Shown here piece by piece: positions 34,019-35,596 of a stretch of 64,000 nucleotides of DNA (positions within the stretch are counted from its first letter, which is position 1; every line of letters starts with the position of its first letter). The position numbers and the translations under genes are program-made. The DNA lies in NCBI RefSeq assembly GCF_019668485.1, contig NZ_AP024619.1, positions 1,425,001-1,489,000 on the forward strand, written 5' to 3'. Source of the DNA: Gelria sp. Kuro-4 (GTDB taxonomy: Bacteria > Bacillota > DTU030 > DUMP01). The notes beneath the pieces were generated by a model, which was not told where the DNA came from, searched no databases, and was given only the letters and a program-made list of their open reading frames with translations.

Positions 34019-34111
34019 GGCCGTTGCCTCCCCACGCGGATTTTTGTGTCTATTATAGCACAGCGTCCTGCCCGCGCAAACGAAAAAATCGCGCCCCGGC
34101 CTGTCTACGCG

Positions 34112-34140
34112 TTGCACCAGCGCAGGCGGTGTGTTATAAT
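34112..34140 (+). promoter_or_regulatory. Sigma-A promoter of the cation exporter
   Basis: TTGCAC (34112-34117) and TATAAT (34135-34140) are 17 bases apart, with TG one base before the -10. Transcription would start near 34147, immediately before the riboswitch. Confidence 0.88.
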
Positions 34141-34149
34141 GCTGCAAGA

Positions 34150-34228
34150 ACAGGCGGCCGACCTCACAGTTGGTGAAGCCGGGCACCTTGGGTGCAGCAA
34201 GTGTCGGAAAGAGCACTTGTGGGACTGT
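34150..34228 (+). promoter_or_regulatory. NiCo (czcD) nickel/cobalt riboswitch
   Basis: The leader shows the conserved NiCo elements in order. AGGC is at 34152-34155, a variable arm follows, then GCCGGGC (34178-34184) with a CACC/GGTG helix, and GCAAGTG (34197-34203) pairs with CACTTGT (34214-34220) as P4. P4 is followed by GGGAC and TGT. This matches the published czcD motif, in which the last junction reads GUGGGAC. The closing P1 helix is short and not obvious. The class binds Ni2+ and Co2+ and switches on cation diffusion facilitator genes; the next gene is one. Confidence 0.82.
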
Positions 34229-34252
34229 AAAGCCTCCACAAGTGCCTTTTTT
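34213..34252 (+). terminator. Riboswitch-controlled terminator
   Basis: GCACTTGTGG (34213-34222) pairs with CCACAAGTGC (34236-34245) in a ten-pair stem followed by CTTTTTT. The left arm is also the 3' strand of riboswitch helix P4, so metal binding should block the terminator and allow transcription of the exporter gene. Confidence 0.9.
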
Positions 34253-34282
34253 AACGGCTGGAGGCAGAAAGGAGAGAGATCC

Positions 34283-35248
34283 TTGATTCAGCGCTTTACT
34301 GACTGGCTGCTTTCTGTTTTCCTCCGCGGCCACCGCGATCCAGCCGATCCAGAAGTTCGCGCCCGCTACGGCTTTCTTGAGGGGTGGCTCAGCATCGGCG
34401 GGAACATCGTCCTGTCCCTCGTCAAGCTGTTCCTCGGGCTCACCCTCAACAGTGTCTCCCTTCTCGCCGACGCAGCACACACCTTCTCCGACGTGGTTAC
34501 CTCTGCCGTGGTAGTGGTCGGGTTTTACGCCGCCCGCCGGCGCCCTGACAAGGAGCACCCCTTTGGGCATGGGCGGATTGAGTTTGTGGCCACGCTGGTG
34601 ATAGCCCTCCTTTTGGGCCTAGTGGGTCTGGAGTTCGCGCGTTCCTCTTTTCTGCGGCTCCTTTATGGCAACAAGGTCGCCGGCAGCATCGCAGCTGCGG
34701 TGATAATGCTTGTCTCCGGCGCGGTGAAGGAGGCCATGGCCCTTGTCTCCATTGACCTGGGCCGCCGCATTGATTCCGGCGCCCTCCTGGCCGATGCCTG
34801 GCACCACCGTAGCGATGCCATCGCCTCCGTGCTGGTGGCTGTTGCCATTGTGGCAGCCCGCTACGGCTTTGCCAGCGTAGATGCCGTCTTCGGGCTGCTG
34901 GTCTCCGGCCTTATCCTTTACACGGCCTGGGAACTGGGGCACTCGGCCGGCAGCACCCTAATGGGTGAAGCACCGACCACCGGGCAGGTGCAGGAGATAC
35001 TGGCCCTCGCCAAAAGCGTCCCCGGCGTGCTCAGCGTTCACGATGTGGCCGTCCACGACTACGGCAGCGTGAAGGCCGTCTCCCTGCACATTGTGGTGGA
35101 TGTGGACATAAGCTTCGACCGGGCACACCAGATTGCCGCCCAGGTGGAAAAGCGTATCAAAGAACGTGTGCCGGGAACGGTAGTGGTGCACGTGGACCCG
35201 AATAATGTGAAAGAAGAAGATGAAGAGCTGCTGACGCAGCTCTCCTGA
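34283..35248 (+). CDS. Cation diffusion facilitator, probable Ni2+/Co2+ exporter
   Basis: The 321-residue protein has about six membrane segments and the CDF metal-site motifs: SLLADAAHTFSDVV (near residues 55-68), HPFGHGRIE and LLADAWHHRSDA (near 173-184). A cytoplasmic C-terminal domain with HDVAVHDYG and VHVDPNN follows. CDF proteins exchange cytoplasmic divalent metals for protons. The TTG start follows AAAGGAGAG; open codons upstream belong to the riboswitch leader. Control by a NiCo riboswitch makes nickel or cobalt the likely substrate, although zinc and iron are known for other members. Confidence 0.92.
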   Translation: MIQRFTDWLLSVFLRGHRDPADPEVRARYGFLEGWLSIGGNIVLSLVKLFLGLTLNSVSLLADAAHTFSDVVTSAVVVVGFYAARRRPDKEHPFGHGRIEFVATLVIALLLGLVGLEFARSSFLRLLYGNKVAGSIAAAVIMLVSGAVKEAMALVSIDLGRRIDSGALLADAWHHRSDAIASVLVAVAIVAARYGFASVDAVFGLLVSGLILYTAWELGHSAGSTLMGEAPTTGQVQEILALAKSVPGVLSVHDVAVHDYGSVKAVSLHIVVDVDISFDRAHQIAAQVEKRIKERVPGTVVVHVDPNNVKEEDEELLTQLS

Positions 35249-35428
35249 AGGAAAAGGACGTCAGAAGGCGAAAAAATTCTTGGGGGAAAAGAGGATTTTG
35301 GCTGTGCGGTGAGAATCTATATACTGGTTCTGCGCGGTAGGAGGCCAGTGGAGGACCAGTGGCAGCTTCAGCTGCGAGCCAGGCTGGCCCACGCCAAGGA
35401 AGCCAAGCGAAAGACGGAGGTGACACAG

Positions 35429-35596
35429 GTGGCTTACAAGATCGGGGAAGAGTGCATTGCCTGCGGTTCCTGCCAGCCGGAGTGCCCGGTGGAGGCCATC
35501 AGCGAAGGGGACATCTACGTTATCGACCCGGAGAAGTGCATTGAGTGCGGTTCGTGTGCTGATGTCTGCCCGGTAGGCGCCCCGAAGCCCGAATAA
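35429..35596 (+). CDS. Clostridial-type 2[4Fe-4S] ferredoxin
   Basis: The 55-residue protein has two classical motifs, CIACGSCQPECP and CIECGSCADVCP, the hallmark of the low-potential ferredoxin of anaerobes. The GTG at 35429 follows GGAGGTGACACAG; an upstream in-frame ATG adds 40 residues with no family match. It is the likely electron acceptor for enzymes such as IorAB. It is monocistronic and ends in a perfect 16-bp hairpin. Confidence 0.95.
   Translation: MAYKIGEECIACGSCQPECPVEAISEGDIYVIDPEKCIECGSCADVCPVGAPKPE

Follow-up and report, generated by a model that had tools for sequence, protein, structure and literature searches.

A NiCo-class riboswitch that very probably controls the single CDF exporter gene of Gelria sp. 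Kuro-4 by transcription attenuation

Background

The NiCo (czcD) riboswitch class was first described for nickel and cobalt, and responses to Fe(II) were found later (PMC7689651, PMC9294342). The natural metal of the class, Ni/Co or Fe(II), is disputed, and reviewers call the question unsettled (PMC7689651, PMC9294342). Ligand-dependent attenuation is the reviewed mechanism (PMC7689651).

The leader that we describe from Gelria sp. Kuro-4 is, as judged from its sequence, a genuine and ordinary member of this class. It shares with the class (Rfam RF02683) the four-helix core, the GCCGGGC and GUGGGAC elements, a terminator using the 3' arm of helix P4, and a downstream CDF gene. It differs in that its closing helix P1 is weaker than most and that an extended -10 promoter abuts the aptamer. 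NiCo riboswitches located before P-type ATPase genes have the same aptamer and terminator logic but regulate a different type of exporter, and many of those loci have an additional conserved stretch upstream, which the Gelria locus lacks. The Gelria locus comes from a lineage that is poorly sampled within the phylum, for which it contributes a well-conserved NiCo riboswitch, and it leaves the general picture unchanged.

Aptamer and class membership

We searched the window, the whole 64-kb stretch of DNA that was analysed, against Rfam with cmscan. RF02683 matched 34136-34229 on the forward strand over the full length of the model (1-96 of 96) with 50.4 bits (E 1.6e-8), compared to a gathering cut-off of 37 bits; this bore out the class assignment proposed in the first-pass annotation. 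No other Rfam family exceeded its own cut-off anywhere in the window. A genome-wide search identified this match as the only one to RF02683 in its genome, and its score was the highest among the NiCo loci of the bacterial family. The features of the aptamer are as follows.

34136..34229 (+): NiCo riboswitch aptamer (RF02683), by the cmscan match above
34147..34226 (+): P1, A34147-U34226 and G34148-C34225, plus C34151-G34223 (covariance match, alignment)
34153..34180 (+): P2, 34153-34155/34178-34180 and 34157-34162/34169-34174
34178..34184 (+): GCCGGGC, G run in the presumed metal-binding core (Rfam consensus match; ligand role suggested by the class structure, PMC7689651)
34183..34195 (+): P3, 34183-34187/34191-34195
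34197..34220 (+): P4, 34197-34204/34213-34220
34219..34225 (+): GUGGGAC, G run in the presumed metal-binding core (Rfam consensus match; suggested ligand role, PMC7689651)

All of the consensus elements named in the first-pass annotation were located, with AGGC at 34152-34155 and GCAA at 34197-34200 in addition to the two G-rich elements, which agree with the consensus and are invariant across seven relatives. A four-helix junction was recovered in which P2, P3 and P4 are clear and P1 is weak, pairing at 2 of its 4 positions in addition to the C-G pair. The fold z-score was -0.26 for the aptamer alone, which is uninformative, and -3.1 when the terminator was included.

Two computed alternatives were set aside. 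An ACAG (34150-34153)/CUGU (34225-34228) closing helix, from the aptamer-only fold, would break P2 and is not conserved in relatives (e.g. L003 and L007). A misfold pairing 34141-34146 with 34193-34198 requires bases upstream of the likely transcription start.

Terminator and proposed mechanism

34213..34252 (+): intrinsic terminator of 10 pairs (34213-34222/34236-34245) followed by T6, its 5' arm common with the P4 3' arm

The segment GCACTTGTGG (34213-34222) pairs perfectly over ten bases with CCACAAGTGC (34236-34245), which is followed by a C and then by six T residues (34247-34252). The first-pass claim that the P4 3' arm doubles as the 5' arm of a ten-pair terminator is thus exact at the level of complementarity. 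When the downstream sequence was shuffled, an equally good terminator on the P4 3' arm arose in just 13 of 2000 shuffles. A standard terminator scan missed this structure, as the 13-nt loop exceeds the 8 nt that the scan permits.

The 5' arm of the terminator takes in the P4 3' arm as well as two G residues at the start of the conserved GGG, and therefore aptamer and terminator are mutually exclusive. Computed energies were -15.9 kcal/mol for the terminator versus -9.1 kcal/mol for P4, so the metal-free RNA is expected to terminate by default. Without metal, 34236-34245 would pair with the P4 3' arm plus two residues from the metal-binding GGG, and the resulting ten-pair terminator before the U run would stop transcription. 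Binding of the cognate divalent metal would lock in P4 and the GGG runs of the four-helix aptamer, the terminator would be blocked, and polymerase would continue into the exporter gene. For this to happen, ligand binding during transcription would have to tip the balance against the default terminator. The architecture points to a metal-on switch, and most likely certain metal ions must be abundant for the CDF gene to be transcribed. Taking together the class membership, terminator, overlap, gene and conservation that can be read from the DNA, we conclude that a NiCo (czcD) class riboswitch very probably controls the genome's single CDF exporter via transcription attenuation.

Exporter gene

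34268..34274 (+): AAAGGAG, ribosome-binding site, 8-nt spacing to the TTG start (sequence)
34283..35248 (+): CDF family metal exporter gene, 321 aa, TTG start, HxxxD/HxxxD metal site (PF01545, PF16916, TIGR01297, motifs)

The gene downstream of the switch encodes a CDF exporter, as had been annotated in the first pass. Both Pfam domains scored above their cut-offs (Cation_efflux, PF01545, 145.7 bits; ZT_dimer, PF16916, 71.4 bits), and the protein, which also matches TIGR01297, has a transmembrane domain and a dimerisation domain. It was the lone Cation_efflux gene found in the genome, and we infer that it is under control of the riboswitch. The protein aligns with the YiiP/FieF structures, which are among its best PDB matches. 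HxxxD/HxxxD was present at the metal site in 47 of 55 rows compared, a count in which the CDF protein appears twice and the E. coli YiiP row is a yardstick whose sequence is approximate, the remainder following the structure alignment. None of the equivalog models FieF, MntE, DmeF and Cdf31 came near its cut-off for this protein; all were far below, and therefore the transported metal is not nameable from them.

Promoter and closing helix

34112..34117 (+): weak -35-like hexamer TTGCAC (consensus match at 3 of 6 positions only), with a 17-nt spacer to the -10
34132..34140 (+): extended -10 promoter element TGTTATAAT (TGnTATAMT, common to 7/7 family loci)
34146..34148 (+): likely transcription start, inside the P1 5' arm (from the usual -10 spacing)

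The first-pass interval began at 34112, where the weak -35 hexamer also starts. The last base of the extended -10 (TGnTATAMT) lies 11-12 nt before AGGC in all seven family loci. Assuming the usual distance of 6-8 bases from -10 to start, the RNA is predicted from the sequence to begin probably at 34146-34148, within the P1 5' arm. P1 may be weak because the promoter adjoins the aptamer and the RNA likely starts inside P1, so that no longer 5' arm would be possible. Computed folding does not favour closing of P1 without ligand. In relatives, the G-C pair of P1 is invariant and the A-U pair is replaced by G-C and G-U. Promoter-like hexamers were equally near the aptamer at a few other NiCo loci, and the layout is therefore not unique to this bacterial family. 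That promoter and aptamer are fused in the family, such that start-site choice sets P1 strength and hence the metal threshold, is an unlikely proposition in our estimate.

Conservation in the family and in the phylum

Of the eight genomes from the bacterial family, seven had the NiCo riboswitch, always upstream of a CDF gene, and the P4/terminator overlap was kept in the same proportion (7 of 8). When these seven loci were aligned, all 68 terminator cells that could be compared were paired, and at two pairs both partners had changed in a compensatory way; the aptamer was paired in 93.7% of cells versus 25-42% when the pairing was slid. Aptamer covariation among these seven sequences, which are too similar, was not above shuffling.

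In the genome of the sister species, G008, the CDF gene is kept and no NiCo match was found. All that is left, at 1323-1375 of locus L087, is the P4 3' arm, GUGGGAC and a terminator whose T run is interrupted, which would be consistent with loss of most of the aptamer or with a misassembly. The compact promoter-aptamer layout together with this aptamer-depleted sister genome offers a natural comparison for the importance of P1.

We also surveyed the phylum. NiCo matches at E up to 0.001 were found in 99 of 398 sampled genomes, 71 of them above the family's cut-off. The downstream gene at 77 NiCo loci encoded a CDF protein in 53 and a P-type ATPase in 19, in agreement with the reviewed exporter function (PMC7689651). 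A terminator using the P4 3' arm was found at 70 of 76 loci, where the looser sharing criterion by itself is satisfied by 31% of shuffles; a strong-score terminator was found at 65 of the 76, compared to 0.9% of shuffles. Since 70 of 76 loci share the P4 3' arm with a terminator, the arrangement is the class norm.

The sequence CTCTTTGCRCTGC lies upstream of the aptamer at many NiCo loci (L008-L019, L021 and L023), mostly before P-type ATPase genes. The sequence GTGCCRTAGAGCTATC or a similar one precedes the gene in eight loci (L010, L011, L014, L017-L019, L023 and, slightly differing, L024). Neither belongs to any Rfam match that we found.

Alternative readings

The first-pass annotation rightly described a very short closing helix and suggested that the locus may be a minimal variant; the helix has two contiguous pairs plus C34151-G34223. 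A distinct variant whose closing helix is truncated and whose ligand or affinity is changed would fit a P1 that ranks in the bottom 7 of the 76 loci, next to a promoter that leaves no space for a longer 5' arm. However, the core elements are intact, close relatives with the same architecture pair 3-4 positions, and most of the class has a P1 of just 3-4 pairs: among the 76 loci compared, all 4 positions were paired in 42, 3 in 27 and 2 in 7, the Gelria locus included. A short P1 is thus the class norm and does not define a minimal variant of the core; we regard that reading as quite improbable and did not retain it. The sister genome G008, with its aptamer loss and partly retained terminator, gives a precedent for a decayed, non-functional aptamer preceding a constitutive terminator. 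Here, though, no core element is damaged, no other locus in the family scores as high and the terminator pairs without a mismatch, which makes decay extremely improbable.

The identity of the metal bears on a further reading, which is compatible with attenuation by a NiCo-class riboswitch: Fe(II) could be the physiological ligand and the CDF protein chiefly an iron exporter. Class members have responded to Fe(II) in reviewed work, and the metal levels predicted for cells speak for Fe(II) or Mn(II) (PMC7689651, PMC9294342). FieF/YiiP is also among the best PDB matches of the protein, but it is the closest solved relative for many CDFs, the equivalog scores give this assignment no help, and the HxxxD/HxxxD site is not metal-diagnostic. 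We hold iron as a credible possibility, tentatively and short of preferring it.

Neighbouring features

On the reverse strand of the window, TGCTATAAT at 34050-34062 is the likely promoter of a divergent gene with a PPDK_N domain, and it is conserved among aligned relatives. Downstream of the exporter gene and on the same strand lies a two-cluster ferredoxin gene (35309-35596, +). The segment 35658-36761 (-) encodes a 3H-domain/HTH regulator beside a small, unassigned and probably membrane protein; the two are possibly a NiaR-type niacin regulator and its transporter.
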